Below the pieces are notes generated by a model that was not told the origin of the DNA, did no database searches, and worked only from the letters and a program-made list of their open reading frames with translations. 64,000 bases of DNA from Mesostigma viride (lineage: Eukaryota > Streptophyta > Mesostigmatophyceae > Mesostigmatales > Mesostigmataceae), in contig RPFO01000079.1 of the NCBI GenBank assembly GCA_009746045.1, positions 4,114,271 to 4,178,270 of the forward strand, read 5' to 3'. Positions 1,345 through 56,790 of the stretch are shown here, piece by piece; position 1 is the first letter of the stretch; the number at the start of each line of letters is the position of its first letter. The translations under genes were made by a program, and so were the position numbers.

Positions 1345-4300
1345 GGACAAGGACAAGGTGCTGGCACAAGGACAAGGACAAGGACAAGGACAAGGACAAG
1401 GACAAGGACAAGGACAAGGACAAGGACAAGGACAAGGACAAGGACAAGGACAAGGACAAGGACAAGGACAAGGACAAGGACAAGGACAAGGACAAGGACA
1501 AGGACAAGGACAAGGACAAGGACAAGGACAAGGACAAGGACAAGGACAAGGACAAGGACAAGGACAAGGACAAGGACAAGGACAAGGACAAGGACAAGGA
1601 CAAGGACAAGGACAAGGACAAGGACAAGGACAAGGACAACACAAGGAAAGGAGAAGGACAAGGACAAGGACAAGGACAAGGACAAGGACAAGGACAAGGA
1701 CAAGGACAAGGACAAGGACAAGGACAAGGACAAGGACAAGGACAAGGACAAGGACAAGGACAAGGACAAGGACAACCACAAGGAAAAGGACAAGGACAAG
1801 GACAAGGACAAGGACAAGGACAAGGACAAGGACAAGGACAAGGACAAGGACAAGGACAAGGACAAGGACAAGGACAAGGACAAGGACAAGGACGAGGACA
1901 AGGACAACGTGCTGGCACAAGGACAAGGACAAGGACAAGGACAAGGACAAGGACAAGGACAAGGACAAGGACAAGGACAAGGAGAAGGACAAGGACAAGG
2001 ACAAGGACAAGGACAAGGACAAGGACAAGGACAAGGACAAGGACAAGGACAAGGACAAGGACAAGGACAAGGACAAGGACAAGGACGAGGACAAGGACAA
2101 CGTGCTGGCACAAGGACAAGGACAAGGACAAGGACAAGGACAAGGACAAGGACAAGGACAAGGACAAGGACAAGGACAAGGACAAGGACAAGGACAAGGA
2201 CAAGGACAAGGACAAGGACAAGGACAAGGACAAGGACAAGGACAAGGACAAGGACAAGGACAAGGACAAGGACAAGGACAAGGACAAGGACAAGGACAAG
2301 GACAAGGACAAGGACAAGGACAAGGAAAAGGACAAGGACAAGGCTGGCACAAGGACAAGGACAAGGACAAGGACAAGGACAAGGACAAGGACAAGGACAA
2401 GGACAAGGACAAGGACAAGGACAAGGACAAGGACAAGGACAAGGACAAGGACAAGGACAAGGACAAGGACAAGGACAAGGACAAGGACAAGGACAAGGAC
2501 AAGGACAAGGACAAGGACAAGGACAAGGACAAGGACAAACAAGGACAAGGACAAGGACAAGGACAAGGACAAGGACAAGGACAAGGACAAGGACAAGGAC
2601 AAGGACAAGGACAAGGACAAGGACAAGGACAAGGACAAGGACAAGGACAAGGACAAGGACAAGGACAAGGACAAGGACAAGGACAAGGACAAGGACAAGG
2701 ACAAGGACAAGGACAAGGACAAGGACAAGGACAAGGACAAGGACAAGGACAAGGACAAGGACAAGGACAAGGACAAGGACAAGGACAAGGACAAGGACAA
2801 GGACAAGGACAAGGACAAGGACAAGGACAAGGAAAAGGACAAGGACAAGGCTGGCACAAGGACAAGGACAAGGACAAGGACAAGGACAAGGACAAGGACA
2901 AGGACAAGGACAAGGACAAGGACAAGGACAAGGACAAGGACAAGGACAAGGACAAGGACAAGGACAAGGACAAGGACAAGGACAAGGACAAGGACAAGGA
3001 CAAGGACAAGGACAAGGACAAGGACAAGGACAAGGACAAGGACAAGGACAAGGACAAGGACAAGGACAAGGACAAGGACAAGGACAAGGACAAGGACAAG
3101 GACAAGGACAAGGACAAGGACAAGGACAAGGACAAGGACAAGGACAAGGACAAGGACAAGGACAAGGACAAGGACAAGGACAAGGACAAGGACAAGGACA
3201 AGGACAAGGACAAGGACAAGGACAAGGACAAGGACAAGGACAAGGACAAGGACAAGGACAAGGACAAGGACAAGGACAAGGACAAGGACAAGGACAAGGA
3301 CAAGGACAAGGACAAGGACAAGGACAAGGACAAGGACAAGGACAAGGACAAGGACAAGGACAAGGACAAGGACAAGGACAAGGACAAGGACAAGGACAAG
3401 GACAAGGACAAGGACAAGGACAAGGACAAGGACAAGGACAAGGACAAGGACAAGGACAAGGACAAGGACAAGGACAAGGACAAGGACAAGGACAAGGACA
3501 AGGACAAGTGCTGGACAAGGACAAGGACAAGGACAAGGACAAGGACAAGGACAAGGACAAGGACAAGGACAAGGACAAGGACAAGGACAAGGACAAGGAC
3601 AAGGACAAGGACAAGGACAAGGACAAGGACAAGGACAAGGACAAGGACAAGGACAAGGACAAGGACAAGGACAAGGACAAGGACAAGGACAAGGACAAGG
3701 ACAAGGACAAGGACAAGGACAAGGACAAGGACAAGGACAAGGACAAGGACAAGGCAGGGACAAGGACAAGGACAAGGACAAGGACAAGGACAAGGACAAG
3801 GACAAGGACAAGGACAAGGACAAGGACAAGGACAAGGACAAGGACAAGGACAAGGACAAGGACAAGGACAAGGCACAAGGACAAGGACAAGGACAAGGAC
3901 AAGGACAAGGACAAGGACAAGGACAAGGACAAGGACAAGGACAAGGACAAGGACAAGGACAAGGACAAGGACAAGGACAAGGACAAGGACAAGGACAAGG
4001 ACAAGGACAAGGACAAGGACAAGGACAAGGACAAGGACAAGGACAAGGACAAGGACAAGGACAAGGACAAGGACAAGGACAAGGACAAGGACAAGGACAA
4101 GGACAAGGACAAGGACAAGGACAAGGACAAGGACAAGGACAAGGACAAGGACAAGGACAAGGACAAGGACAAGGACAAGGACAAGGACAAGGACAAGGAC
4201 AAGGACAAGGACAAGGACAAGGACAAGGACAAGGACAAGGCTGGACAAGGACAAGGACAAGGACAAGGACAAGGACAAGGACAAGGACAAGGACAAGGAC

Positions 4301-7960: not shown

Positions 7961-8790
7961 TTAACAAAAGCATTTCTGTGACAAGAACAGTGGGCGACCA
8001 TTCCCATTATTATCTTTTCCTCTTTTGTTTCTTCCCCTTCCCGGACTCCATTCATAAGCGACGTCCGCCATCCCCAAACGATGCAAAATTTTGTTGGAGC
8101 TCTGCATCTTCTCCAACAGTTCTTGATCCGATTCCTCCTTTGCACGACGCGCTTCCTCTGCCTTCGCCTTTGCGGCCTCCACATCTGCATCTATATCCGC
8201 CTTCACCACCATCCTGATCAAACGGTCCCGCTCCTCAGGCCTCTTCGGCAGTCCCACCGGCTCTGCGGCAAGAAGAAGCTCCAAAATATCCTTGTGCAGT
8301 CTTTGTGCTTCCACAAATCCTAGCTGCGTCATCAAGGTGTACGCGCATTCCGCGCCACACCCTGCAAGGAATCCCCCATGGTAACGTTATGCCCATGAGC
8401 AAACCCGTACGCGCTGTCCCCCTCTGCCAAAATCTCGAGTCCCTGCCTGTCGAGGCGCACCAGCTCAACTTTCCGTTCCCCAGTGTGCGTTGCCGTGAAG
8501 TGGAGGACCGAGCGTGTCATTCCGGTCTTCCCCATCAACATCTGCAAACTTGCTACGTATGCGATCCCACGAGCGCACACGTCCTCCAACTTCTCGGCAA
8601 AAGGTAGATGTGTCTTGCAATACACATCCAATCCCTCCAGTGGTCTATCACATCTAAGAAATCCACACCCCCCGTATGGATCCTTGGCATGTTGGTACTC
8701 GAGGTCGTGCTCTTGTAGGAACTTATAATGTTCCGCGCACAGTCCCTCGACCCTTACGGGCTCCGTACAGATTTTGCATTTCGTTGCCAT
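7961..8790 (-). CDS. Cys/His double-motif protein, copy 1 (frameshifted at a C5 run)
   Basis: Starts at ATG 8790 (MATKCKICTEP). The N-terminus has two Cys/His clusters resembling small zinc-binding modules: C-x2-C-x9-C-x2-H, then GCGFLRC...YCKTH. The downstream part has a GGFLAGCGAECAYTLMTQLG stretch similar to GCGFLEGDWW in the paralogue at 10200-10982, then a charged helical tail (EAAKAKAEEARRAKEE). The frame breaks near 8373-8378 at five Cs (plus strand); changing frame there joins the 5' frame to the tail, which ends at 7961. Family and function are unknown. The same N-terminal pattern occurs at 9017-9589 and 10200-10982, and in shortened form at 9784-10128, all on one strand, so this is a local gene family. 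Confidence 0.6.
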
Positions 8791-11012: not shown

Positions 11013-11374
11013 TTCTCACCGTCAACGGCCGTTGGCTTGAAACAACAAGAATGATTTATTACTCGCACGAAAATCACACCATTTTCCAGCCTCCAACGGC
11101 CGTTGGCGCACGAAAAATGCACGAAAAAAATTTTTACTATGCATTTATTGATTACATCCATAGTGCCACGTGGCGAATCACACCCAACTTTCCAGCTGCC
11201 AACGGCCGTTGGCGCAAAGAAAATCAAACCCTAATTTGCAGGTTCCAACGGCCGTTGGCGCAAAGGAAATCAAACCCTAATTTGCAGGTTCCAACGGCCG
11301 TTGGCGCAAAGAAAATCAAACCCTAATTTGCAGGTTCCAACGGCCGTTGGCGCAAGAAAATCACACCCAACACT
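11013..11374 (+). repeat. Palindrome-rich intergenic block, duplicated at 12023-12300
   Basis: Contains palindrome copies near 11022, 11093, 11199, 11247, 11297 and 11338 with the usual AAATCAAACCC or AAAATCACACCC tail, and a segment with CGCACGAAAAATG and GCATTTATTGATTACATCCA. The same arrangement recurs with minor changes at 12023-12300, so the spacer between genes was duplicated along with gene ends. Confidence 0.8.
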
Positions 11375-12022
11375 TCAGTAGCAGAATCGATTCGCCTCGG
11401 TCACGCACTCGAACTTGTACTCCTGCCCGAGCGCGAACATCACCTCACGAACCGCCTTCTCAAACTCGTCAACACCGGCACTTCCCCACTCATGCACGTA
11501 TTCGCTCAACCAGACCATGCAATCATCAGCAGAGTTGAACAGCCAGTCGTTCATTGTTTGAGTGTGATGCTTGAAGTACTTGCCGTCTTTCAAGATGACC
11601 CACTTGAACCGTCCCTCTCCCCCCAAACCCTCACACCCTTCTCCCGTATCATAACCCATTACCCGTTTTCGAATGACATTACCATCAGCATCAACGGTCT
11701 CATACCACATCCAGGGTTTCGAATAATCAATGGGCCTTATAGCACCAGACCTCACAAGCACCTCCTCAAATGGCTCTACGGTCGGCTTTGGGATCCCACG
11801 GCCCTCCATATTGAAAACAAGAACCGCGTCCGTCGCGTCTGGTCGCATACGTGTCAGAAGACCCTCTCCACCCTCCTCTGGCTTGAACGACAGCTTAATG
11901 TCCGGCAAAAGCCGGAGCGCGCTCTTAACCACACCCCGAAGCCTGTCTTCCAAGTCGTCACGCTTTTGTTGCCATTCGGTAATATCGATCCACTCGCCCC
12001 CCTTCGTCCTGTAGAACGTCAT
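11375..12022 (-). CDS. Unrecognised 215-aa protein
   Basis: An intact frame from ATG 12022 (MTFYRTKGGEW) to 11375. It lacks the N-terminal Cys clusters of its neighbours. Features: an amphipathic helix (EWQQKRDDLEDRLRGVV), a DYSKPWMWYETVDADGN segment, and an aromatic/acidic C-terminal half (EYVHEWGSAGVDEFEKAVREVM). No signal peptide or membrane segment is evident. Its upstream region is homologous to that of the 10200-10982 gene, and its last 90 bp recur in decayed form at 12300-12395, so it took part in a local duplication. Function unknown. Confidence 0.6.
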   Translation of the reverse strand: MTFYRTKGGEWIDITEWQQKRDDLEDRLRGVVKSALRLLPDIKLSFKPEEGGEGLLTRMRPDATDAVLVFNMEGRGIPKPTVEPFEEVLVRSGAIRPIDYSKPWMWYETVDADGNVIRKRVMGYDTGEGCEGLGGEGRFKWVILKDGKYFKHHTQTMNDWLFNSADDCMVWLSEYVHEWGSAGVDEFEKAVREVMFALGQEYKFECVTEANRFCY

Positions 12023-12406: not shown

Positions 12407-13197
12407 TCAAAAAACCTTGAACATTTCACCTTTGAACTTGAAATGCACTTCACCCCCCATCCGAATTACAAGTCCGGCCAAATTGACACCAGACCAGCTG
12501 TCTGTAACGTCGCCGTGCATAGTGCTGAGAGACTTTCTCGCCTCACGATACTTGTTACACCACTTCTTGTGTTCCTCCCAGTCCGCACGCTGGCATTCGG
12601 CAGCACAATACCGGACGTCTCGACAACCCCCGCACTTGCGGTGGACACCCTCTTCCACAGAGCACGCCTGATTCGAGCAACACTTTGGAAGCGAGCCGAG
12701 CATCGGCCCTCCCACCCCCGGGAGAACGATCATCCGTGAAAACGTCAATTTCACGGACTCGGAATTCCCGAATGTAAAATGGAAACCTTCAAACCCCCCC
12801 CCTCTACTCTCGCCGATACGGTCAATCTCGGCTGCGCCTCACTCGCGTCTGGAAATTTCCCCCACTGGTCTTTCTCCCACTGGTCCCACCCAACCTTTCC
12901 GACATACGACACCAAAAGTCGAAACTCGATGTCTCGATTGAGTGGAACCCGATCCGCCGGCGTGGGCTTGTAGAATCCGCCAGCCAAGGCGAAGTACATG
13001 TCCAGCAACTGGAGATTAATCTGTCGTCCTACTGAGGCGAACGAGTCATACACGACCAAAACCGCAAACTGGCGACCCAGGCGCTTCTCGTGCTGCCGTA
13101 CCCATCCGTGGATCTCGCGAGCCCGGTTAAGTACGTTTGCTGCCACGCAGGCAATCGCAGCGCGGGTCGAAGATTCCAGCTCGCCCGTCTCCGCCAT
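12407..13197 (-). CDS. MYND-finger protein A (frameshifted at a C9 run)
   Basis: Starts at ATG 13197 (MAETGELESS). The N-terminal half has LGRQFAVLVVYDSF and IEFRLLVSYVGK, matching TGRHLTVLLAFDSF and REFRLLVSF in MYND protein B. The frame is lost at nine Cs (plus strand, about 12795-12803). The other frame then gives FEGFHFTFGN and a C-terminal MYND zinc finger: CCSNQAC...CGGCRDVRYCAAECQRADWEEHK, with the typical paired Cys and final His/Cys. MYND fingers usually bind proteins through proline-rich motifs. The frameshift is either a real lesion or a homopolymer error. The family's N-terminal domain is not one I can name. A palindrome variant (CCAGCGGCCGTTGG) lies about 80 bp upstream. Confidence 0.7.
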
Positions 13198-21179: not shown

Positions 21180-21873
21180 CTATGAGGAAGAACCGTAGTA
21201 GAAGGTGAAGGAGAAGTCGACCTCAGAGAAGTCGACCTCGGTTCCATCCAGTATGGTCGTCCTGTTTACCCCCCTTATCACCCCTGCCAGCCCCTCCCTT
21301 GCTTGCCTCAGACGTTCGCATCTATCCTTATGCCTACTCCAGTCAGCACGCTGGCACTCCTCACTGCAATATCTGGCATCCCTACATCCTCTACACCACT
21401 TCTGAGGGCCTGTGTCGCACCCACACCCCTCCTTGGAGCAATTTCGCATACCACGCATGGGATCCCCATCCCTCACGATCGGGTCAGAGAGCAAGAAAAA
21501 GTTCATGTTGAGGGGTACTTCTGCCCCTACACACGCATCAGCCCTCACGCGCAGGGAAGACGTAACATTCGGGTAAAATGCGCGCCCGTAGGTGCACCCA
21601 AGCTGAGCCCCTTGCTCTTCCCCCAACTCTATCTTTGGCCCCTTTGTAATGAACGACACCAAAAGTCGGAACTCCCTCGTTGGGTCTATTGGCGCTCTTA
21701 GATCCATCTGTGGTACGAAAAAACCCTCTTGAATACAGAAGTTCATATCAGCTAGCTGGGCGTACATAACCCTCTCCATTTGGCTGAACGAATCAAACGC
21801 CAATAAAACGGTCAAGTGGCGGCCTGTCCTCTCCTGCGCGACACGAACTTCCTCGAATATGACACGCGACAGA
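21180..21873 (-). CDS. MYND-finger protein B, 3' part (split by SDR element 1)
   Basis: Joined to 23868-23937 with the intervening element removed, it reads in frame: YKQVRF|LSRVIFEEVRV, then TGRHLTVLLAFDSFSQMERV, REFRLLVSFITKG, and a MYND finger CSKEGCGC...CRGCRDARYCSEECQRADWSRHKDRC, ending DFSFTFYYGSSS. It is homologous to MYND protein A throughout, with the finger C-terminal of an unnamed domain. MYND fingers mediate protein-protein contacts. The gene is interrupted and probably inactive. The apparent longer N-terminus (MFRDCSTIGPLPLL) belongs to the inserted element. Confidence 0.72.
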
Positions 21874-23867
21874 ATCGGATTTCTTTGAAAAGAGTTTCTC
21901 GAAGTGAGGCGGGGAATAAGGCCGCTCACGGGAGCCGCCTGGATGGTCGGCTGAACCGGGCGGGTTTGGCAGATGTAACCGGATTTGGCTAATGGCTGGC
22001 GACCTGGAATTGTTAGTAGGGGCAGTGGCCCTATTGTGCTACAATCTCGAAACAATCTTATGCTTAAAGTTTGACAGGGCCGGGTTTGTTGAACCGGTTT
22101 GTTGAATGATAATTAGAACCTTTCGGAAAGGGTATTTGATTGGTTGTTGTTTTTGTGGTACGGTAGGTGTCGCTACATTCTCAGGTTGGCGTGTTAAGTT
22201 AAGCTCGGTTGCTGATGTCAGCCCCGTGCTAGGGCAGTTTGACTACTTTGGCGGCGTAGTGACATTGTTGTGGTCTTTTTTCTTGTAAACGTTGGCTGAG
22301 CGCCGACGGCTGAGGCTATGGCGGTACAAGAAGTGCCTCACCAGCCTTGCGCTCAGCATGGGTGCGGGGCTAAAATTTGTTAACCAAATTTCCGGCATCC
22401 ATGATCCCTGGCTGCTTAAGGCGGTTGGGATTCATGGCTGCCACTGGCCCGGAATTAGTGTCCGGGTGATCGGGGTTTAAATGCGAAGCGGGGGCTGATG
22501 CATTATTTAATGGCTGGTTTGTTTGAAAGAAACGGCCAGCTGGCCGGGTTGGGCAAGGGCTAGCTTGCTTGATGGTTCCGTACCTGGGGATGCTTGCGCC
22601 TCGGGTTGGGCTGTCGGCAGGCTGGCCTGCCTTTGAGTTGTCTCGTACCTGGAAATGCTTGCATTCCGGGTTGGGCTTGGCTTGAGGGCCGCCGCGGCTC
22701 GGGGGGGTAAAAAATTTAAGTCACCGTTGTGGGACACGGAGCCTCGGCGCAGGAGGCAAGGGCTGAAAGCCAACTTGATTTCGTAATCAGTGGTATTTCC
22801 ACTTTTTTGTACGGAAGGAGTGTTTATGTACTCGGCACTAGGTTGGTTGCTCTTCAAAAAAGTTGTAAACTGGGCGTCGGCTGGAATCAGCGGCGCCAGT
22901 CAGCAGCTTTTGCTTTGACTTTGTGTTCCGCGACAGCACCCCTTAGCGGACCAGAGAAGAGGTCGGCAACGAGGTCAGCGGGGGCCCCCGAGTGGGGTCA
23001 AAAATGCGAGCTGTGTCGATTGACAGTGCATGAATTTTTGTGCATTCACAGTCGCTGGGAATTAAATCTGTTTTCTGGCAACGGAGAGCGCCCATCGCGA
23101 CAGGACAGCTTTTGACGGGAAAGGAAATGGTGCTTCTTTAGCGGACCGGAGGGCCAGGAAGGGGAGGTTGGGTAATCGCGAGCCATGCCTAAGGAGTTCT
23201 TAATAGCGGTTCTGTAACCGCTACCTGTCTGTATGCATCTACTTATTGTTTTAACAAAGATGCTGGTGACTATGGTGAGCAAACGGGTGTATGAATCGGA
23301 TTTCTTTGAAAAGAGTTTCTCGAAGTGAGGCGGGGAATAAGGCCGCTCACGGGAGCCGCCTGGATGGTCGGCTGAACCGGGCGGGTTTGGCAGATGTAAC
23401 CGGATTTGGCTAATGGCTGGCGACCTGGAATTGTTAGTAGGGGCAGTGGCCCTATTGTGCTACAATCTCGAAACAATCTTATGCTTAAAGTTTGACAGGG
23501 CCGGGTTTGTTGAACCGGTTTGTTGAATGATAATTAGAACCTTTCGGAAAGGGTATTTGATTGGTTGTTGTTTTTGTGGTACGGTAGGTGTCGCTACATT
23601 CTCAGGTTGGCGTGTTAAGTTAAGCTCGGTTGCTGATGTCAGCCCCGTGCTAGGGCAGTTTGACTACTTTGGCGGCGTAGTGACATTGTTGTGGTCTTTT
23701 TTCTTGTTCCACCCACCCACCCTCTTTGGTGGCCTGGTCTGCGCGGGTAATCGCGAGCCATGCCTAAGGAGTTCTTAATAGCGGTTCTGTAACCGCTACC
23801 TGTCTGTATGCATCTACTTATTGTTTTAACAAAGATGCTGGTGACTATGGTGAGCAAACGGGTGTAT
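21874..23867 (+). mobile_element. SDR element 1: non-autonomous, split direct repeats A1-internal-B1-A2-linker-B2
   Basis: A1 21874-22286 and A2 23295-23707 are 413 bp each. B1 23170-23292 and B2 23745-23867 are 123 bp each. The 883-bp internal region (22287-23169) is GC-rich and has no ORF I can relate to any protein. A 37-bp linker with CCACCCACCCACCC separates A2 and B2. B1 joins A2 through ATGAATCGG. Flanks show only a shared GA or GAA at each end and no longer target duplication, and excision leaves the MYND gene in frame. This is the layout of PAT/Ngaro tyrosine-recombinase retrotransposons (DIRS group), but without their genes. A tandem dimer whose second copy is internally deleted would look the same. 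Orientation is arbitrary. Confidence 0.75.
23708..23744 (+). promoter_or_regulatory. C-rich linker of SDR element 1
   Basis: Starts TCCACCCACCCACCCTC and sits between A2 and B2. It matches the linker starts in SDR elements 2 (26618) and 3 (59009). The complementary strand has three GGG tracts plus a GG, so it may form a G-quadruplex. Confidence 0.5.
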
Positions 23868-23937
23868 GAAAGCGAACTTGTTTGTAAACGTTTTGAAGGA
23901 CGCTTCCGTAGACTTCATTCACGATCTCGGACTCCAT
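23868..23937 (-). CDS. MYND-finger protein B, 5' part
   Basis: ATG at 23937 (MESEIVNEVYGSVLQNVYKQ), running into the right edge of SDR element 1 after VRF. It is in frame with 21180-21873 once the element is removed with one GA retained. Confidence 0.65.
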
Positions 23938-24372: not shown

Positions 24373-24818
24373 TGAAAAAAACTGCACGTGAAGCACAACT
24401 GGCACAACCAATGTAAGTAAACCTAGTACCTTCAGGGGCGGATTAATTCATCAGCCGGAGTAAAATTTTATTTTACAACGCCAACGGCCGTTGGCATTAC
24501 AGCAATGAAATTAGGAGAGATAAAAACGTCGTAATGCAACGGCTGATAAAACTGGCGTATAATAAATAACGCAAAAAAAAATTGGCAAGACACTTTTTTT
24601 TGGAGGTCCAACGGCCGTTGGCATCACGTAAATCACAACAGCAATGATGGAAACTGATTTTGCAAGTCCAACGGCCGTTGGCATCAAGAAAATCAGAAGA
24701 GGGAGCGACTGCCCAAAAAACGCATAATAATAAAACAAGTACCTTGCAGGTGGTTGACAGACGCGAATCTTGTGTGGCGACGTGGAATCTGCAAGGAATG
24801 CGCAAAAACGTTGCAATC
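24373..24818. other. Spacer with three palindrome copies
   Basis: CCAACGGCCGTTGG at 24481-24494, 24608-24621 and 24668-24681, each followed within about 10 bp by an A-rich or AAATCA-like tail. No credible gene. Confidence 0.7.
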
Positions 24819-26776
24819 GGGGTTCTTTGAACGGAGTTTCTTCTATACGTGAATGCGGGAACAAGAGGCCGCTGGATGAGCGGCTTATAGGTCGCAGTGT
24901 TTACTCGTAGCTGTTTGGCTAGAGCTTTTGTGATTAGTAGATGCAATATAGTGCATGGTTGAAAAATGAATTAAATAAAATGTGCGTTCCGCGCTTGGGT
25001 TGATTATACCCGGGCGGAACGGGGCGTGAGGTGCAGTGCCCCTGAAAAGAACAACCTACGCATTATTTAATACTAGCCGTGCAGATTCGGGATATTCTAC
25101 CCCCGGTCTGTACGGTTAGCGTCTTACTAGCATCCACTAAACATAAGGGTTTAATGACGTCAGTTAGCTAGGGATAAGGGAGGTTTTGCGACTAAAAGCC
25201 GCTCTGGCTGGTTTTGTCGGCCTCTTTCTTTGCTCGTTGTCGTTGCGGCGGCAGCCGCAGCTATGGGTGCTGCGGAGCAAAATCCCAAAAGCACTGGTTG
25301 CACTGGCCACTTGGCCAGTGGTGAGACTTCCAGTTGTTAACCGGCCAGGCGTAGTTCCTCGCCCGGTTAACTAAAAGAAAAGAAAAAGATTACCTCCGGT
25401 CCGCACCTTTTCCCCAGCTTGGGGTCTTTGGTGGGCCGGATGCCGTGACAGGTGCTCAACTGTCGCTTGGTCGGCCCAGTGCGCGAGCTGGTGCTCCGTA
25501 CCTGGGGATGCTTGCACCCCGGGTTGGAGCCGGATGGCTGGCACTGGCGACCCGTGTCTCGGTCCGCGGCCTGCGGCTTTTTCTTCGGAAATTGCTGCTG
25601 GCCAGCAAACTTTGCAATTGCCTTCCGCCGAGGGGGGGTGGTTGGGGCTGGGGACGGCGATGGGAAAAGCGTCTAAGCTAGAAATTTTTTCCCCACGCAT
25701 AGAAACCTCGGGGGGAATGCGGTCTTGGCTGAACGGACTCTCGTTCAGCCAGGTGCCTGGGGCTGTGGCCTCGGGCATCCGGGCTGGCGGGGCCTGGGCT
25801 AGGTCCACGTTTTTTCTCGAAGCACCCCGGGTCTATGGGGAGACGGCCATAGCGGTACCGACTCGGGGCCCCGAGAGGGGTCATGATAGGCTGGCCGTGC
25901 GCAATCGCAGTGCAAATGCGCTGGGCCTTTTTGGGCCTGGCCATGCATCCACAGCCGCCGGGCACACGCCTCCCGATGTGGGGGGGCTCCCGTTTTGCGG
26001 CAGGGCGGTCACTTGTGACAACAAGCAAGGTGGAGTGCGGCTTCAAGGGAAAGCCAGGGCGGGGGTGATTGGGCAACGTACTTCATGAAGGGCCTTGAAC
26101 GGCGTGCCTCCGGGCATGTCAATTAGTGTCACATGTATGCTTCCACTTATTGTTTTAATGAAGATGCTGGTTTTTGTGGGAGCTACGTGGGACATGAATC
26201 GGGGTTCTTTGAACGGAGTTTCTTCTATACGTGAATGCGGGAACAAGAGGCCGCTGGATGAGCGGCTTATAGGTCGCAGTGTTTACTCGTAGCTGTTTGG
26301 CTAGAGCTTTTGTGATTAGTAGATGCAATATAGTGCATAATTGAAAAATGAATTAAATAAAATGTGCGTTCCGCGCTTGGGTTGATTATACCCGGGCGGA
26401 ACGGGGCGTGAGGTGCAGTGCCCCTGAAAAGAACAACCTACGCATTATTTAATACTAGCCGTGCAGATTCGGGATATTCTACCCCCGGTCTGTACGGTTA
26501 GCGTCTTACTAGCATCCACTAAACATAAGGGTTTAATGACGTCAGTTAGCTAGGGATAAGGGAGGTTTTGCGACTAAAAGCCGCTCTGGCTGGTTTTGTC
26601 GGCCTCTTTCTTTGCTCCCCACCCACCCACCCTTGTCTTGGTTGCCTCTAGGGCAACGTACTTCATGAAGGGCCTTGAACGGCGTGCCTCCGGGCATGTC
26701 AATTAGTGTCACATGTATGCTTCCACTTATTGTTTTAATGAAGATGCTGGTTTTTGTGGGAGCTACGTGGGACATG
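24819..26776 (+). mobile_element. SDR element 2: same architecture as SDR element 1
   Basis: A1 24819-25235 and A2 26201-26617 (417 bp, differing at about two bases near 24957). B1 26071-26196 and B2 26651-26776 (126 bp). The internal region 25236-26070 (835 bp) is GC-rich without a recognisable gene. The linker 26618-26650 begins CCCACCCACCCACCCTTG. The tetranucleotide AATC is present once at the left edge, once at the B1-A2 joint and once at the right edge, as expected for recombination within a short shared core. Terminal arms resemble SDR element 1: the A start shares GAATCGG, TTCTTTGAA and GAGTTTCT; the B end shares ACTTATTGTTTTAA and AAGATGCTGG. Confidence 0.75.
26618..26650 (+). promoter_or_regulatory. 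C-rich linker of SDR element 2
   Basis: Starts with (CCCA)3CCCT and is followed by TGTCTTGGTTGCC. The complement has four GGG tracts with one-base loops, a canonical G-quadruplex motif. Confidence 0.5.
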
Positions 26777-26937
26777 AATCAGAATTACAAGGATTACATA
26801 TTTTCCACATTTAGTTTTTCAGGTCCAACGGCCGTTGGAATGAGATAAATAAGAATACCACTACATGCGTGTGAGAAAATTGTGCCGGGTGACAGAATTA
26901 AATCCAAGTTGCCCAGCAGGTGGGAGGGAGGGAAAAG

Positions 26938-49429: not shown

Positions 49430-50539
49430 TCAAGTCCCACCAGAAAAGGGGTCCATGAGCCCTTTGAGCACAGGGTATTGTAGCTCAGCCTTGCTCTCCA
49501 GCTTGGTGAGGGCGTCTGCTGGGTTGTCAACACCAGGCACATGTTCAAGATGAGCAAGGTAAGACATCTCCTTCAGCAACAAATAATCCAGATCCCTGCT
49601 CCTGGCGAGCTGTCTGTGCACAAACTGCACCATGCCCATGCTGTCTGTCTTGACCAGTGTATGCAGCTGCAAGCTACAGGAAGCTACCTGACAGAGCTGG
49701 TAGAATAACTCCCTGAGGTAAAGAGCAGTGTGTAGCCCCTCACATATTGCCCTGCACTCAGCAATGTCGCTGCTGGGCGTCACCCTGTTCTGTAACCTAC
49801 TGTACCAGCTGACCAGAGAAGTGTGCTCCTGTTGTAGTGTAATGAGTGCTGCTGCCCTGCCCCTGACATCCGTCACCTTCCTGCTGTCCATGGAACTGTC
49901 CACAAAAAGCACCATGTTGAGTGGTTTGTACAAGTCCACAGCTGCCAGTATGAGTGGAGGTGAGCTCCTGACAGACTCAACCACCTGCTCTGCCCCTACC
50001 TCAACCAGCTGAGCATCTGTGAGCCTACTCAGCACCAACAAATCTGGGGCACAAATGCTAGCTAGCCAAGCCAACATTCCCCTGATTGTGGCACACCTGG
50101 CCTGGGTAATGGGCTGCTGGAGGGCATCAATGATCTGCTGAGGATAGTTGTTGCCACCCTCCATCTTGATAAACCAAGTACCTGCCCTCTTGATCAGCGT
50201 GGCCTGCATTCCACAAAACACCATGGGCTCATCCTGCTTCATGTGCTGGACCTTTCCTAACTCAAACCTCTTCTGGATCTTGGACAGTACTGAATCCACC
50301 CACTCAGGAGGCCCTAGAAGGTGCAGGTCATCTCCATGCAGAGATGCAAACACAGGCAACCCTTCATGAGTACTCTGGAACAAGCAAGGATCAACTGGAG
50401 ACACAGTAAAGCCACAGTGAGTTTTCAGAAACTTTTCCAGGCTCTTTCTCCAGATGATAGGGCTGGACCTGAGACCCTCCAAACCCTTGAGTATTCTGAG
50501 ATATTTTGACTTGATCTCTGCTCTCCACACCTTGGGCAC
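49430..50539 (-). CDS. Reverse transcriptase C-terminal part and RNase H
   Basis: 369 aa. RT part: RILKGLEGLRSSPIIWRKSL, DPCLFQSTHEGLPVFASLHGDDLHLLG, where HGDD replaces the usual YVDD, and MVFCGMQATL. RNase H follows: MVLFVDSSMD, SDIAECRAICEG, LVKTDSMGMVQFV and VDNPADALTKLES, giving the expected Asp, Glu, Asp, Asp. It would copy element RNA and remove the RNA strand. A second, truncated copy of the RT part sits at 50591-51354 because of the tandem duplication, which separates this part from the RT N-terminus. Confidence 0.85.
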   Translation of the reverse strand: MPKVWRAEIKSKYLRILKGLEGLRSSPIIWRKSLEKFLKTHCGFTVSPVDPCLFQSTHEGLPVFASLHGDDLHLLGPPEWVDSVLSKIQKRFELGKVQHMKQDEPMVFCGMQATLIKRAGTWFIKMEGGNNYPQQIIDALQQPITQARCATIRGMLAWLASICAPDLLVLSRLTDAQLVEVGAEQVVESVRSSPPLILAAVDLYKPLNMVLFVDSSMDSRKVTDVRGRAAALITLQQEHTSLVSWYSRLQNRVTPSSDIAECRAICEGLHTALYLRELFYQLCQVASCSLQLHTLVKTDSMGMVQFVHRQLARSRDLDYLLLKEMSYLAHLEHVPGVDNPADALTKLESKAELQYPVLKGLMDPFSGGT

Positions 50540-51354
50540 TGTTACAAAGAAGGGAGGGTATCACTGCCCTGCACTCAGGCACCTGCACACCCTGTTCTGT
50601 AACCTACTGTACCAGCTGACCAGAGAAGTGTGCTCCTGTGTAGTGTAATGAGTGCTGCTGCCCTTCCGTCACCTTCCTGCTGTCCATGGAACTGTCCACA
50701 AAAAGCACCATGTTGAGTGGTTTGTACAAGTCCACAGCTGCCAGTATGAGTGGAGGTGAGCTCCTGACAGACTCAACCACCTGCTCTGCCCCTACCTCAA
50801 CCAGCTGAGCATCTGTGAGCCTACTCAGCACCAACAAATCTGGGGCACAAATGCTAGCTAGCCAAGCCAACATTCCCCTGATTGTGGCACACCTGGCCTG
50901 GGTAATGGGCTGCTGGAGGGCATCAATGATCTGCTGAGGATAGTTGTTGCCACCCTCCATCTTGATAAACCAAGTACCTGCCCTCTTGATCAGCGTGGCC
51001 TGCATTCCACAAAACACCATGGGCTCATCCTGCTTCATGTGCTGGACCTTTCCTAACTCAAACCTCTTCTGGATCTTGGACAGTACTGAATCCACCCACT
51101 CAGGAGGCCCTAAAGGTGCAGGTCATCTCCATGCAGAGATGCAAACACAGGCAACCCTTCATGAGTACTCTGGAACAAGCAAGGATCAACTGGAGACACA
51201 GTAAAGCCACAGTGAGTTTTCAGAAACTTTTCCAGGCTCTTTCTCCAGATGATAGGGCTGGACCTGAGACCCTCCAAACCCTTGAGTATTCTGAGATATT
51301 TTGACTTGATCTCTGCTCTCCACACCTTGGGCACTGTTACAAAGAAGGGAGGGA
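49783..51354 (-). repeat. 0.8-kb tandem duplication inside RT
   Basis: 49783-50563 is repeated at 50591-51354 with small indels (for example CTAGAAGGTGCAGG versus CTAAAGGTGCAGG, and loss of a piece near 50664). Both copies include the HGDD motif. Confidence 0.9.
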
Positions 51355-52767
51355 TATCACGCCACGTCTCCTTGGCCTGCTCCACATCACCTTAAGAAAA
51401 GCCCTCTTGAAATCAATCAGCACAGAGCTGTACGCAATGCCCTTGACCAGGAAAGACAGATATATACACAGAACAATCCTCCAGGTATCATGCAGCATCC
51501 CAGGCGTATACAACTCCTCATCTGTCAGCTCCCCCGTGCCATGGTACTCAGTCACAACTGGCCTCACATGTGGCACCTGCACACCGTCTATCTCCTTCAG
51601 CTTGAGCACAAACAAGAGCCTTAGCAACTGATGCTCCCTGGGCAACTCATCCACAGGCTCAGCACAGTTAGACACTATCCAGTCATGCCCACTGGAGACA
51701 AACCCTAGAATCCATGCCTTAGCCATCTTGGGGCTTTGCATCAACTCTACCAACTGGTGCCAGGAAATAGGACTGTGACCAGCAATCTGGTACTTGTGCA
51801 CCCCCAAGTCCCGTGGATCTAGGGTGGTTGGGATGATCAACAAGTCCTCAGCAATGGGCTCCTTGCCTTCAGGCCCCACACTCTGCTGCCCCTTCACAGC
51901 CTTGACTGCCACAGCTAGACCCTTGGAGTAGTGATATCTCTGGAGGGGCAAACTGCCATGACCTTCTAGTGCAAGCTCATCTGCTGACAGAGTCACTCCT
52001 GGCATGCACAAGAAATTCTGGCCCAAAATGGCAGGCCCCTGGTACCCTTCCACCACACAGAACGCAGTGGGGACACCCAGGATAGGCACAGTCACTTCCC
52101 CTAGGATCTTCATTGTTACAGTGCCCGTAAAGTCACTCACTGCCCTGCAGCCAGCCTTATTCACCTTCAGGCCCTGAGCATCCTCCACCCTGATGATAGA
52201 CACCTCTGAGTTAGTATCCACTTCTAGGGTAGCAGCCCAGCAAGAACCCCATTCAGTCAACTTAGATACCTTGGGATCCTTGTGCTTGTTGAACATGAGC
52301 GACCGGACAATGTCTGCCATGAGTGGCCTCTTGGACCCTGGTGCAGGCCCAGCCCCCGTTGGCTCCACCACAGGTGATGCAGTTGCCTCCTGCACCTCAT
52401 CATCATCAGAGGGATAGCCACCTCCCACGTCAGTGACAGGCACATCAACTACCTGGTCCTTAACCTGGCCCTCCAGCCAACACTGGGGTCCAGGCCCGTC
52501 TGCAGGCCAGATTGCATGTGGCTTGCGTTCCTTGACGTTGGCCCAGCTCAACCTGTAAACATGCCTGGGATTACTCTCCAAGGCCACAAGGCAGGAACGA
52601 TTGGCATCTTCCACACAGGTCACCACCCCGTTCTGCCACTTGCCCCTCTTGCCCTGCATTGATGGCTCCTTCCACATTCTGACCTTCAGCCCCACCTGAG
52701 GCCTCAGCACATTCCAGCCCCTATCCTTGCGTCTCAACTGAGCAAACACCCTGTCTGCTTTCCTCAA
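51337..52767 (-). CDS. Integrase C-terminus, protease-like domain and RT N-terminus
   Basis: 476 residues; the frame starts at a TTG that overlaps the integrase stop, so it is probably a shifted continuation. Residues 1-95: VGLKVRMWKEPSMQGKRGKW and VYRLSWANVKERKP, an integrase C-terminal-like module. Residues 115-150: acidic and Pro-rich linker. Residues 175-255: a retropepsin-like segment, LEVDTNSEVSIIRVEDA (Asp-Thr-Asn where Asp-Thr-Gly is usual) and AILGQNFL (usual ILGxDFL). Residues 365-461: RT N-terminus, with RPVVTEYHGTG and LIDFKRAFL. After that the frame shifts (GDVEQAKETWRDIPPF continues in another frame near 51385). The protease therefore lies between integrase and RT, unlike standard Copia. 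Confidence 0.75.
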   Translation of the reverse strand: MRKADRVFAQLRRKDRGWNVLRPQVGLKVRMWKEPSMQGKRGKWQNGVVTCVEDANRSCLVALESNPRHVYRLSWANVKERKPHAIWPADGPGPQCWLEGQVKDQVVDVPVTDVGGGYPSDDDEVQEATASPVVEPTGAGPAPGSKRPLMADIVRSLMFNKHKDPKVSKLTEWGSCWAATLEVDTNSEVSIIRVEDAQGLKVNKAGCRAVSDFTGTVTMKILGEVTVPILGVPTAFCVVEGYQGPAILGQNFLCMPGVTLSADELALEGHGSLPLQRYHYSKGLAVAVKAVKGQQSVGPEGKEPIAEDLLIIPTTLDPRDLGVHKYQIAGHSPISWHQLVELMQSPKMAKAWILGFVSSGHDWIVSNCAEPVDELPREHQLLRLLFVLKLKEIDGVQVPHVRPVVTEYHGTGELTDEELYTPGMLHDTWRIVLCIYLSFLVKGIAYSSVLIDFKRAFLKVMWSRPRRRGVISLPSL

Positions 52768-53759
52768 GCAGCCTGGACCACTTCCTGGGCTAGCATCCCA
52801 AACTGCAGTGCTACAGGATTGACAGCCACCCCGTCATAATAGTAGTTTATTCTGAGGTTCAACTGTTCTTCCACCTGCCTGGTCCACACTGCCCTCTCCA
52901 AAGCAGATGCTACCAGTGGCACCTTAGGTTCTGCCAGCACTACGGTCTTGACCTCCCTGATGGATCTCTCCACAGCACCTTGCTGTCCATGGCTCTCCCT
53001 GGGCGTGACCAGCAGCTTGCATGGCAGTTGCTCCTGCTGTGACAGTAGGCACTCAAACTGAATATCAGCCTGTACTGTCTTGTACACCCCAAAGCCTGGT
53101 AAGAGAGTCTGCAAGCCCAGCAGCAGGGTATTCCCCTTCATATCTGGCAGAATCTGGAGCAGCCTGTACCTGCTAAATCTGTCCACTGCCACCAAAATGT
53201 ATAAGCCCCTGATATGCTGGACGTCTACCTGGATGTCCCCCTTCTCCCTGGCAGGCTCCCTAGCATGGGACCTTGGCTTCTTGGCAGCATTCTCCTTACA
53301 AGCACATTGCTCAGCTGCAGCCCTGCATGCTTCCCTCAGTGGCTCATCTCCAATCTTCCAACCAAACATCTCAGCCATGGCTGTGTGACCAAAGATATTG
53401 TGCAGCCTGCGTCCAGCATCCGTGTAGCTCAGTTGCCTAGCCAGATTACGCACCTGGGAAGACGCCTGGACGGGCCCTGCGTGTGAGGACGCAACATCCA
53501 CCTTCTGCATCTTGGATCCAGAGGACCCAGCAGACCCTCCCAGCAGAGCATCTAGGCTCCCAGAGCCAACCCTGTCTGGGGACCCTCCACCTGTTGACAG
53601 TTGAGGGGATTGTTGTGCTGCAGCATGCATGCAATCTTGTGGAATGAGAACATCAGTACACCCCTGGTGCTGATCAGAGGTGGCACCCTGCCCAGATTTA
53701 TTTACATGTGAAGCTGTGTCCCCACAGGGTGTCTCACTATGTACACGGGACTGCTTCAC
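52764..53759 (-). CDS. Integrase (pol), in frame with gag past one UGA
   Basis: 331 residues from 53759. Residues 1-100 are a low-complexity linker without a protease motif. Zinc-binding HHCC-like residues: LHNIFGH (H120, H125) and QCACK (C152, C154). Catalytic core: D179 in IQVDVQHI, D232 in VQADIQFE, E264 in GAVERSIREVK. There is no ATG at the start. The codons before it are CTA and, before that, TGA (53765-53763), which ends gag in the same frame. So integrase is probably made as a Gag-Pol fusion by stop-codon readthrough. Integrase would insert element DNA into the genome. Confidence 0.82.
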   Translation of the reverse strand: MKQSRVHSETPCGDTASHVNKSGQGATSDQHQGCTDVLIPQDCMHAAAQQSPQLSTGGGSPDRVGSGSLDALLGGSAGSSGSKMQKVDVASSHAGPVQASSQVRNLARQLSYTDAGRRLHNIFGHTAMAEMFGWKIGDEPLREACRAAAEQCACKENAAKKPRSHAREPAREKGDIQVDVQHIRGLYILVAVDRFSRYRLLQILPDMKGNTLLLGLQTLLPGFGVYKTVQADIQFECLLSQQEQLPCKLLVTPRESHGQQGAVERSIREVKTVVLAEPKVPLVASALERAVWTRQVEEQLNLRINYYYDGVAVNPVALQFGMLAQEVVQAA

Positions 53760-53762
53760 TAG

Positions 53763-54587
53763 TCACTTCTGATCAGACTGCCCCTTCTTCTTGTTTGGGC
53801 AATCCCTCTTCCAGTGACCTTCCTTGCCACAAGCAAAACACTTGCTCTTGCCAGACCCTCCCCCTGGGGCCTTGCTGTCCTGCTTGTTCTGGTTGCCTGA
53901 GGCCTGATTGTTATTCTGCCCCTGGCCACCACCCTTACCCTGCTGATGGCTGTTACGGTTGCCAGACTGGTTCCCCTGATTCTGGTTCCCCTGCTGACCT
54001 CCTCCACCACCCTGGTTCTGCTCCTTCTGGGCCTGCTTCCTTCTCCTGCTACCATACCGTGTCCCAGATGGGGTACGGTTCTTGCCCTGGCTAGCCTGAG
54101 ACGCTGACCCTCCCTGAGAACTGATACCCTTGCAGGTAGGGACCCGGGTCCTGAAGTTTAGTATCACACGCTTCAGAGCCCCCCAGGTGCCATCAGTGAG
54201 ATCACAGAGCTGCCTAGCAGTAGCCCTACCTTCCTCTGACAAGCCCATCTTATCAAAGAAGTGGTCTGCTGCTGCCCTGACTGTCACACTGAAGCCCTGC
54301 TTCTTGCCTGCCTCCACGATCAACTCAAACCTGGCCAGCTCAGCAGCCACCTCACCCTTGATCTCAAACTCATCAAATTCTCTCTTCTTTTCCATGGTGA
54401 GATTGTGAACCCTGTCAGAAAACTCCTCCTTGATGTCATCCAGGAACTGCAGCCAAGTGTGCCCCTCTTTCAGAGCATGCCTAGCCATGTCATTGACCCT
54501 TTCAGACGACCCCTTGTTTGCGGTGGAAGAGTGAAACACCCTGACAATATCCACACCTGCTGCGACAGAGCCCACAACTAGCTTCAT
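53763..54587 (-). CDS. Gag with CCHC zinc knuckle
   Basis: From Met at 54587 (MKLVVGSVAAGVDIV); the same frame is open further up to about 54655 (HEWAESAQPSLKQDNLDKWL). Helical capsid-like region: ARHALKEGHTWLQFLDDIKE, FSDRVHNLTMEKKREFDEF, FFDKMGLSEEGRATARQL. A Gln/Asn/Gly-rich linker follows, then CFACGKEGHWKRDC (C-x2-C-x4-H-x4-C) and KKKGQSDQK. The stop is TGA followed by CTAG, a strong readthrough context. The N-terminal part lies in another frame at 54620-55087, implying a frameshift. Confidence 0.85.
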   Translation of the reverse strand: MKLVVGSVAAGVDIVRVFHSSTANKGSSERVNDMARHALKEGHTWLQFLDDIKEEFSDRVHNLTMEKKREFDEFEIKGEVAAELARFELIVEAGKKQGFSVTVRAAADHFFDKMGLSEEGRATARQLCDLTDGTWGALKRVILNFRTRVPTCKGISSQGGSASQASQGKNRTPSGTRYGSRRRKQAQKEQNQGGGGGQQGNQNQGNQSGNRNSHQQGKGGGQGQNNNQASGNQNKQDSKAPGGGSGKSKCFACGKEGHWKRDCPNKKKGQSDQK

Positions 54588-54619
54588 GTCATCAAGCCAT
54601 TTATCCAGGTTGTCTTGCT

Positions 54620-55087
54620 TCAGGGAGGGTTGAGCGCTTTCTGCCCATTCATGACTGTCACAGCATCAGAAAATGGACGGGTGCCAGGCAACACACTCCC
54701 CACACGCACTGGTGGTGCCTGGGGAGGGTCAATCCTAGCCTCCAAACGCTCGGGCAACATACCAGACACCCTATCGTGAACAGCAGCTTGCTTTGCAGCA
54801 CGCACACCTGGGGTGACGATGGCGTCCTCCTCACCAGGCGTTGTGAGCACCACTGCATCCGTAGGTCGCCTGGCACGCTTGACTTTCTCCGCCTCAGCTT
54901 GCCCATCACGCCACCGCTTGTGTGTTCTCCCGGCTCTGGGGTCCATCTCTGGGATAGGTTGCCCAGCTGGCGCCTCCACGCCCCTCTCCTCCATCGCCTC
55001 CCCTTCCTCTCTGGCGATGTCCTCCTCTGCCGTTCGCTCCCGTTGCTCCTCGAATGTCGCCGCACCCCGGCTTGCCCTCCTAGGCAT
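54620..55087 (-). CDS. Upstream gag segment (basic/acidic), other frame
   Basis: 155 aa from ATG 55087 (MPRRASRGAATFEEQRERTA), with EEGEAMEERGVEAPAG, HKRWRDGQAEAEKVKRARRP and PPVRVGSVLPGTRPFSDAV. It resembles the charged region that precedes Gag in such elements. Its 3' end overlaps the start of the CCHC-gag frame, so the two were probably one protein before a one-base change, or are linked by frameshifting. Confidence 0.55.
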   Translation of the reverse strand: MPRRASRGAATFEEQRERTAEEDIAREEGEAMEERGVEAPAGQPIPEMDPRAGRTHKRWRDGQAEAEKVKRARRPTDAVVLTTPGEEDAIVTPGVRAAKQAAVHDRVSGMLPERLEARIDPPQAPPVRVGSVLPGTRPFSDAVTVMNGQKALNPP

Positions 55088-55155
55088 TATATACAATGGC
55101 TGCGACCAACTTTGCAACAAGAAAACAGCAAACTCTCCACCTATCCTCCACCCCC

Positions 55156-56121
55156 TCAAGCCTCGTTTTCAGACGAAGCTTCTCCTGCAACCGGTGCAGG
55201 TGCTGGCTCGTGGAACGGTCCCTCCACCGGATTCAATGGCTGCCCCTGGTCGTCGTGAGTAGGCACAGGCCTAATAACCACCGGAAGCCTCAAACCATAC
55301 GCGTAATCACGTATCCAGCGAGAACGCCCCCACCTCAGCAAATGGGCCTCACCTAAACCAACGTTGTCGTCAATGTGGTAGCGATTAAGCTCGTCCCGCT
55401 GCGCCTGCTCACGGCCCTCCTGAGAGCCGTCGCCCTCGTGACGCCTCTGGGCCGGCTGTACTACCGCCCCTGCTGGCTGATCTACGAAGTCGTAGAAGGC
55501 GTCGTCGGCTGAGACCTCTCGACCGCCAACCACGTCGACAGTCAAACTTAGCTGGTTTAACTCTCGGCGAGAATGTGGAGTATCCCGACTAGTGTAGATG
55601 GAGAAGGGATTAAGAGTAATGAAGACACGATCAGCAGCGCCTCTGGTCAACTCTAAGACAGAGTGCGCCAGATTCTGGCACTCTGCCACCAACGCCTGCG
55701 TACTGCCACGAACGATGGCCTCCCGCCTGTCCCGGGCGACCTGCACCACGTTTGGCACGCCGGTGTAGTCGTCCCCAAGGCGGAGATTGGCGACAAGGTC
55801 GTTTATCTCTCGGGCACCCCCGAGGCTTATGGCAATTATCTGCAAAAGCAGAGTGACCACCTGCTCAAACGCGAATGCGTTTGTGTGGCCAGCCCGCCAA
55901 GACGCTGGCAGCCTTCTGATGATTTCCGCGAGGTCCTCGCGAAATCTCAGCAGCTGCTCGGCTGCTCCTCGGACGTACTCGCCCGGTGCCGACACCGCAC
56001 GAATATTTCGGCGCACTTCCCCCGAGTCCTCGTGCCCTCCTGCGGGTACTGGACTGGACGCCGCTACCGTTGCTGCACGCGCAAAGGTGTTTGTCCTAGC
56101 TTCAGAGTCCGAATTCGACAT
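55156..56121 (-). CDS. N-terminal ORF of Copia-type element 1
   Basis: 321 aa from ATG 56121 (MSNSDSEARTNTFARAATVA). A long helical stretch: YVRGAAEQLLRFREDLAEII, FAFEQVVTLLLQIIAISL, GAREINDLVANLRLGDD. The C-terminal half is rich in Arg and acidic residues and ends AGEASSENEA. The helical stretch resembles FRGLADRSQQMHVAEAGSLV and CAIITHILGLPNLQAGTRR in Copia-type element 2, which suggests a conserved domain upstream of Gag in this group. I cannot name it. The ORF can be extended into the LTR at 56238, but that start is unlikely. Confidence 0.6.
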   Translation of the reverse strand: MSNSDSEARTNTFARAATVAASSPVPAGGHEDSGEVRRNIRAVSAPGEYVRGAAEQLLRFREDLAEIIRRLPASWRAGHTNAFAFEQVVTLLLQIIAISLGGAREINDLVANLRLGDDYTGVPNVVQVARDRREAIVRGSTQALVAECQNLAHSVLELTRGAADRVFITLNPFSIYTSRDTPHSRRELNQLSLTVDVVGGREVSADDAFYDFVDQPAGAVVQPAQRRHEGDGSQEGREQAQRDELNRYHIDDNVGLGEAHLLRWGRSRWIRDYAYGLRLPVVIRPVPTHDDQGQPLNPVEGPFHEPAPAPVAGEASSENEA

Positions 56122-56146
56122 ATCCGTCGACCAGACTGTAATACGA

Positions 56147-56790
56147 TTTAGATGAACGCGGATCAGTGAGTTTCTGGTCTTCCCAAGATGTGATGAATGG
56201 AGCCATGGTTTCAACCAGCGGCTTTTAACCTTTACCACAGTTGCCTCACTACCCTGTGGTCACTAGCCTGAGGCGGCAGCACCCACGGACGGTGTTGGGA
56301 AAAGACGCTTGGCCACTGCTGTGTCCGAGCCTTTCTAGGTCTCACCATTGCTGCCAGGCCTTGCACGCCTTGGCAGGTCCGCCACTGTCAATTTCCTTGG
56401 TTGCATCAATCCAGGACGTCTGTCCTTCCATGAATGACAGTAACGCTCTGGATTTATCCGTCATGACAAGTACCCATCCATCCCAGGCCTGCAGGACTGC
56501 CAGTCCTGAAGTCCTGTGACATTCTTGGTACCATCAACCAATATTGACCACAGTACCTCCTAGTGACAGTCGGTCCTGTGACACGTAACGTGTGATGGTT
56601 CACCCAACACTGCCACGTGCCCTGTCCCTCACGTGTCCTTAGTCCTGGTACTGCTGTAGCGTCCGGCGGCATTACTTCGGGACTTGATAACTCTCAAGTT
56701 CCTTGTCCAAATGAGGCGTTTAGCACGGCGTTGGAAAGGCCACTTCAAGTATGATATGCTTAGCATATTGCATCACCAATATGCTAACTC
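56147..56790 (-). repeat. 5' LTR of Copia-type element 1
   Basis: 644 bp, followed by target duplication ATACA at 56791-56795. Confidence 0.92.

Follow-up and report, generated by a model that had tools for sequence, protein, structure and literature searches.

The window analysed here, a stretch of 64,000 nucleotides from the streptophyte alga Mesostigma viride in which all positions below are counted, contains an element of 2.0 kb, E1, that is very probably a recently active non-autonomous tyrosine-recombinase retrotransposon with split direct repeats, and the same holds for its diverged neighbour E2. The anatomy, the genomic copies, the exactness of insertion at three sites, the preference for certain targets, the recombinase-bearing families of the same genome and a junction shared with one of them could all be read directly. 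E1 is structurally nearest to Ngaro elements, and it is a non-autonomous relative rather than a full member of the PAT/Ngaro/VIPER group because recombinase, reverse transcriptase (RT) and RNase H were not seen in E1 or E2.

Anatomy and genomic copies of E1 and E2

E1 has a total length of 1996 bp, made up of A1 (412 bp), an internal part (883 bp), B1 (126 bp), A2 (412 bp), a C-rich linker (37 bp) and B2 (126 bp). The neighbouring E2 is built in the same way and begins 0.95 kb away from E1. The features of both elements are as follows.

21875..23870, + strand: E1, complete non-autonomous split-direct-repeat element, TCGG...GTGTATGAA (ends from 39 of 40 scored copies)
21875..22286, + strand: A1 of E1, 412 bp (exact repeat)
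22287..23169, + strand: internal part of E1 without recognised gene (Pfam, two ORFs of 100 aa or more)
23170..23295, + strand: B1 of E1 with terminal GAA and the motif TGTATG..TTATTGTTTTAACAAAGATGCTGGT (exact repeat; aligned to E2 and F1)
23287..23304, + strand: B1-A2 junction of E1, GTGTATGAA|TCGGAT|TTC (conserved in E1, E2, F1 and a third gene-free family)
23296..23707, + strand: A2 of E1 (exact repeat)
23708..23744, + strand: linker of E1 containing CCACCCACCCACCC (C-rich motif, same place in E1, E2, F1, F2 and F3)
23745..23870, + strand: B2 of E1 (exact repeat)
24817..26778, + strand: E2, gene-free, A1-internal-B1-A2-linker-B2 (repeat analysis; genome copies)
24817..25235, + strand: A1 of E2, 3' end approximate (repeat analysis)
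26071..26198, + strand: B1 of E2 (repeat analysis)
26199..26617, + strand: A2 of E2, 99.5% like A1, 3' end approximate (repeat analysis)
26618..26650, + strand: linker of E2 containing CCCACCCACCCACCC, 5' end approximate (C-rich motif)
26651..26778, + strand: B2 of E2 (repeat analysis)

Direct viewing and extension of the exact repeats bore out the order A1-internal-B1-A2-linker-B2 given for E1 in the initial annotation. Positions 21872-22286 are 100% identical to 23293-23707, as are 23170-23295 to 23745-23870, and repeat length alone excludes a chance origin. Both pairs contain a shared GAA, and the ends were placed at TCGG...GAA by comparing copy with copy. The limits proposed earlier (21874-23867) were thus right in essence but not to the base, and the description as a sub-kilobase element applies only to the internal part. 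In E2, B1 and B2 are identical, while A1 and A2 agree at 99.5%. E1 and E2 match around the B1-A2 junction with 78% identity over 91 bp, of which the 38 bp belonging to B reach 89%; further matches are found where A begins and as short islands within the internal part.

The proposed lack of coding capacity is in agreement with a scan of ORFs of 100 aa or more, in which Pfam gave no match above its curated cut-off for the five ORFs of at least 100 aa lying wholly inside E1 or E2 and none for a further ORF of that size overlapping E2; neither tyrosine recombinase nor RT nor RNase H was seen among these ORFs. A search of a phage collection gave no match, and Rfam at its gathering threshold gave nothing over the window.

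Other copies with the same A and B ends are abundant in the 440-Mb assembly (2243 contigs), with 276 first-look candidates for E1 and 855 for E2. The best 40 candidates for E1 were scored and all are about 100% identical and of full length, while 41 rows were scored for E2; as the best-scoring of their candidates, these copies are skewed towards the young end in age and uniformity. All 40 scored places carry the whole unit at full length and about 100% identity, which excludes the possibility, raised in the initial annotation, that the B1-A2 joint is an artefact of the local assembly. Parsing by motif succeeded for 39 of the 40 E1 copies; the fortieth (L021) has an altered search motif at the start of A1 and is otherwise of full length with a standard right end. 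The majority sequence is matched exactly by 10 of the first 20 E1 copies, and 38 copies of equal length deviate from their majority by 0-4 bases. Among these 38, L029, L039 and L040 each carry one private variant at the matching offset in A1 and A2, as is predicted if both repeats are copied from one template, and four variants of A are confined to one repeat (L025, L035, L038 and one in L039). When distinct sites were counted, variant density differed little between the repeats and the internal part of E1, and this comparison was dropped.

Insertion sites, target preference and joints

E1 interrupts a gene for a MYND-finger protein (Pfam E 6e-8) that is read from the opposite strand.

21183..21874, - strand: MYND gene, 3' part of the split frame (Pfam zf-MYND 6.4e-8; joined frame)
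23871..23937, - strand: MYND gene, 5' part, first Met codon at 23937 (joined frame; gapless empty copies elsewhere)

When 21874 is joined to 23871, CGACAGAAAGCG results and the MYND frame is open over 264 codons, or 253 counted from the first Met, and a paralogue at 12524-13122 of the window matches in two pieces, so that the earlier statement that removal of the element restores the frame is confirmed. The MYND protein is 86% identical to a relative named Mesvir1. It is also 96% identical to a protein labelled Prorocentrum lima (P0001), pointing at either contamination or an unusual transfer. The gene (21183-23937) is itself repeated, its insertion region having 11 gapless relatives elsewhere in the genome.

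Empty sites were sought with the joined flanks of eight E1 copies, and the best 40 of 573 candidate places were scored. Three of the eight insertions have gapless empty counterparts, in which place and query are equal in length, namely the MYND site (11 places, 98%), the L007 site (3 places, 100%) and the L016 site (26 places, 99%); the other five, L026 and L033 included, did not appear among these 40 places. The comparison with an empty allele suggested in the initial annotation thus shows E1 insertion to be exact and free of target duplication at three sites. By eye, the satellite target of L003 fits exact insertion as well when compared with the satellite copies of the window. It is hardly credible that E1 is a static repeat or satellite spread by segmental duplication or gene conversion: the genome is reported to be rich in such duplications in excerpts of its description (PMC6947507), but E1 copies combine identical ends with differing flanks and the gapless empty sites contradict such an origin.

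At the level of 60 insertions (39 of E1 and 21 of E2), 54 have no direct repeat of at least 5 bases at the joint, compared with 1950 of 2000 mismatched flank pairs, two of which reached 8 bp. The absence of an ordinary target duplication noted at the outset holds for these insertions but not for E1 copies L026, L033 and L037 with repeats of 10, 12 and 8 bp, respectively; one further insertion has a repeat of 5 bp. The final AA is missing in L026 and L033, while the right end of L037 is standard. Together with the F1 copies described below, these cases make a second, rarer end-joining route possible. A general occurrence of 4-6 bp duplications or of satellite repeats, either of which would have spoken against the element as first described, was not found; two of the 60 insertions (L002 and L032) sit within simple tandem repeats.

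Pre-insertion sites favour A-A/T, six bases and T-T, an arrangement resembling the inverted half-sites of the elements' own B-A junction. Across 58 sites, -2 is A in 50, -1 is A or T in 57, +7 is T in 36 and +8 is T in 42. The 37 E1 sites (without L026 and L033) show GAA ahead of the joint and T at +7 and +8, and the 21 E2 sites (20 copies fetched of the 41 rows plus the window copy) show A, A/T and T, T. G at -3 is preferred by E1 (21 of 37 sites) but not by E2 (6 of 21 sites). Targets of the 37 E1 insertions match the junction with a mean of 9.03 of 22 positions versus 5.50 in displaced windows, and the arms alone with 6.86 of 19 versus 4.73; neither value was reached in any of 20,000 resamples. 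Self-complementarity of the 58 sites peaks at a centre 3.5 bp to the right of the joint, where it reaches 0.331 as against 0.243-0.321 at other centres. The junctions themselves are laid out as GAA-TCGGAT-TTC in E1, GAA-TCGGGG-TTC in E2 and GAA-TCGTGG-TTC in F1. Judged from sequence, targets and junction have the layout that would be expected of a tyrosine recombinase acting on two inverted half-sites. Because the B1-A2 junction is conserved across families and the target preference resembles it, this junction is likely to be the circle junction and recombinase site of E1, with GAA and TTC as half-sites and a spacer of 6 bp.

The same evidence bears on a non-autonomous rolling-circle (Helitron-type) element, in which A-internal-B and A-linker-B would be two head-to-tail units. 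Helitrons end with CTRR near a hairpin. E1 starts with TCGG, often with A before and T or A after it, and left no duplication at the three sites with empty counterparts, all of which would suit such an element. On the other hand, it ends with GTGTATGAA, i.e., with GAA instead of CTRR, all 40 scored copies have the whole unit from A1 to B2, the target preference of E1 and E2 includes a spacer of 6 bp, and recombinase-bearing families have the identical repeat order. We consider the rolling-circle origin very unlikely.

The joint is one-sided in the 58 sites, with the element's TCGG spacer on the left and GAA on the right; in every standard insertion examined, the spacer of the target comes to lie on the right. 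In 15 of the 58 sites the target has a base other than A ahead of the joint; this base stays on the left and the right end is still GAA. The left spacer was required by the parsing motif, which was passed by 39 of 40 E1 copies and by 20 of 20 fetched E2 copies. Double-strand exchange across the spacer should yield both arrangements. A genome-wide search with one exact pattern for the opposite product of E1 gave one match and none that was genuine; this pattern does not detect targets that have C at +9, as 11 of the 58 known sites do, nor copies altered within it. The sole match (L091) was rejected because it proved to be an internal B1-A2 junction in which C had changed to T. The one-sided joint may reflect either one-strand exchange or biased repair. 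With one-strand exchange, E1-type integration could be likened to that of integron cassettes, and the circle would enter the chromosome single-stranded or one strand would always be discarded.

Recombinase-bearing relatives and a hairpin of gene-free families

A search of the same genome with the Phage_integrase profile resulted in 824 candidates, and most of the best 150, which were scored, fall into three groups, F1 to F3, defined by profile range and ORF length. One member of each was fetched. Four stronger integrase matches on contigs C2011 and C1532 are bacterial in look, and contig C2011 is perhaps a bacterial contaminant. F2 (L042; A 207, B 198) and F3 (L043; A 510, B 149) have the complete split-repeat order. 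The first F1 copy fetched was rearranged; another, L045, consists of A1 (2701-3135), ORFs of 350 and 1099 aa, B1, A2, a linker and a shortened B2.

L045:4097-7393: ORF2 of F1
L042:2399-5383: ORF2 of F2
L043:3181-5448: ORF2 of F3

Pfam recognises the recombinase in all three (E 4e-7 to 7e-7) and neither RT nor RNase H. Besides the recombinase, ORF2 of F1-F3 contains an IDDL motif that we take to be that of RT and conserved acidic residues presumably of an RNase H-like kind. The predicted model of a relative, P0004 (72% like F3; mean pLDDT 60.9), matches RT-RNase H folds with probability 1.00, with E values of about 1e-8 for the retroviral and CaMV enzymes. From these motifs and the relative's predicted fold, RT-RNase H is probably encoded in the F1-F3 families. 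ORF2 of F3 is 99% identical to a Mesvir1 protein. In each of the five proteins aligned, an NPGP motif that we assume to be 2A-like (GDVESNPGP in F3) is located between the RNase H and recombinase parts, and this region of F1 matches an Omono River virus protein in the PDB (E 5e-4), which suggests that ribosome skipping may separate the two enzymes. The term "2A-like" does not occur in the papers among the literature matches listed. Because no methyltransferase was seen, either as a Pfam match besides Phage_integrase in ORF2 of F1-F3 or in the scanned upstream ORFs of F2 and F3, the three families fit Ngaro better than PAT by structure alone.

A pyrimidine-rich stretch and a CCCACCC-rich linker follow A2 in E1, E2, F1, F2 and F3. 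At the B1-A2 junction, E1 is 71% and E2 76% identical to F1 over 93-94 columns. F1 and E1 are alike in this junction and in terminal sequence but differ in the bodies of A and B; neither E1 nor E2 matches F2, and F3 gave a single match, 38 bp long and close to the E2 linker. The search for an autonomous relative suggested in the initial annotation yielded these three families with the same repeat order and a tyrosine recombinase; no autonomous element with E1's own A and B bodies was found. A search for E1's B after other internal sequence, with a preceding purine and hence half of the possible preceding bases, gave 0 places. As to further F1 copies, L087, L089 and L090 are F1-like with a junction identical to that of F1, and L088 matches F1 only as far as the end of B1. 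L045 has possible short duplicated flanks and an internal gap in B2, while the end of B2 is missing in L046. Inverted, partly palindromic flanks were noted at L046:2640-2760 and 8150-8200.

With the copies, the empty sites and recombinase-bearing relatives of the same order, the reading of E1 as a non-autonomous DIRS-like element is supported. In an alternative, E1 would be a Crypton-like DNA element moved by tyrosine recombinase alone, with no RNA step and repeats that are an accident of ancestry. A recombinase would suffice for the insertion features of E1; such an element, however, leaves unexplained the upkeep of A1/A2 and B1/B2, the private variants present in both A1 and A2, the linker and B motif that are shared, and the relatives with RT-RNase H, and we regard it as unlikely. 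The Helitron, satellite, segmental-duplication and plain Crypton readings of E1 were all rejected.

The gene-free elements have a hairpin, TACCTGG..ATGCTTGC....CGGGTTGG, which occurs twice in E1 and once in E2.

22575..22612, + strand: RNA hairpin copy a of E1 (alignment folding)
22640..22677, + strand: RNA hairpin copy b of E1, with compensatory changes relative to copy a (alignment folding)
25493..25530, + strand: RNA hairpin of E2 (alignment folding)

The pattern was found at 990 genomic places (534 + 456) and its reversed control at 0. Nearly all hairpin places among the matches listed have the letters of E1 or E2; two with a third spelling (L092 and L093) both lie inside a third gene-free split-repeat family with two hairpins, E3, of which L092:221-2303 has four repeats and L093 lacks the second B. 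The 17-base hairpin core is absent from the F1, F2 and F3 loci L045, L042 and L043 with up to 3 mismatches allowed. A covariation fold of six of the seven hairpins from three families, leaving out the second one of L093, predicts 16 pairs, of which 6 are changed on both sides in at least one sequence and 1 is broken in two sequences; these sequences are related, so there are fewer independent covariation events than cells. If the gene-free lineage has a cis signal, the hairpin is the best candidate, and it might serve in recognition or packaging. It is conceivable, though we hold it for somewhat improbable, that the gene-free elements form an independent lineage with its own RNA signal that integrates by one-strand exchange.

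Comparison with known split-repeat elements and a model of mobilization

TOC1 of Chlamydomonas, an algal element of 5.7 kb, has terminal repeats that are split and is not known to have a clear coding capacity; by this description it resembles E1, which is 2.0 kb long. According to excerpts of PMC4157794, PMC3266345 and PMC6681497, Ngaro and PAT types combine A1-B1-A2-B2 split direct repeats with a tyrosine recombinase. This order is common to them (including Toc3 and Kangaroo) and to E1, E2 and E3, which differ by having no recognised gene. Insertion without target duplication is described for DIRS1 (PMC3266345) and for VIPER and TATE (PMC12278014). The estimate of the initial annotation that a gene-free version is little described in algae needs correction, as the split-repeat elements Toc and Kangaroo from green algae (PMC3266345, PMC4157794) and PAT-like and Ngaro elements from other algae (PMC8226300, PMC12477816) already appear in extracts of these papers. 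SIRE of Trypanosoma cruzi, a short version of VIPER, is like E1 a short relative of a split-repeat recombinase retrotransposon; it is said to correspond to the region of A2 and B2 (PMC12278014), whereas E1 has all four repeats and its own internal part of 0.9 kb with hairpins. A term search in the fungal Ngaro paper PMC3783388 gave no passage on non-autonomous elements or split repeats, and the word DIRS is absent from the main text of the Mesostigma genome paper PMC6947507, the only one to mention Mesostigma viride among the papers listed when this name was searched for. As far as seen, the large number of copies in a streptophyte alga is new, and so are an autonomous family whose junction is shared, the target rule, the hairpin, the one-sided joint and the 2A-like motif.

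Mobilization of E1 as a non-autonomous retrotransposon could proceed as follows. An RNA spanning A1 to B2 would be recognised by proteins of an autonomous relative acting in trans, most likely of the F1 family because the same junction is shared; going by this sequence likeness, F1 may be the helper that mobilises E1. B of E1 contains what we take to be a poly(A)-like motif. Reverse transcription via the internal B1-A2 block would join the ends to a circle with a B-GAA|TCGGAT|TTC-A junction, and a tyrosine recombinase would insert this circle precisely, as a rule without target duplication, at half-site-like sites (A-A/T, six bases, T-T). To our knowledge, circle making and insertion by split-repeat retrotransposons are known mostly from models. 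This genome combines young near-identical copies and empty sites with a target rule and with autonomous relatives whose junction is the same, so that the circle model can be put to a direct test. The hairpin, which has so far been met only in gene-free families, is a concrete candidate for the signal through which such parasites of a parasite may be recognised.

Apart from these elements, the minus strand of the window contains a probable Copia-type element at 49430-56238, with a zinc knuckle above the cut-off and RVT_2 and integrase core below it. The palindrome CCAACGGCCGTTGG occurs at many places of the window, both inside and outside of satellites (e.g., 733-1347, 11062-11376 and 24471-24701).
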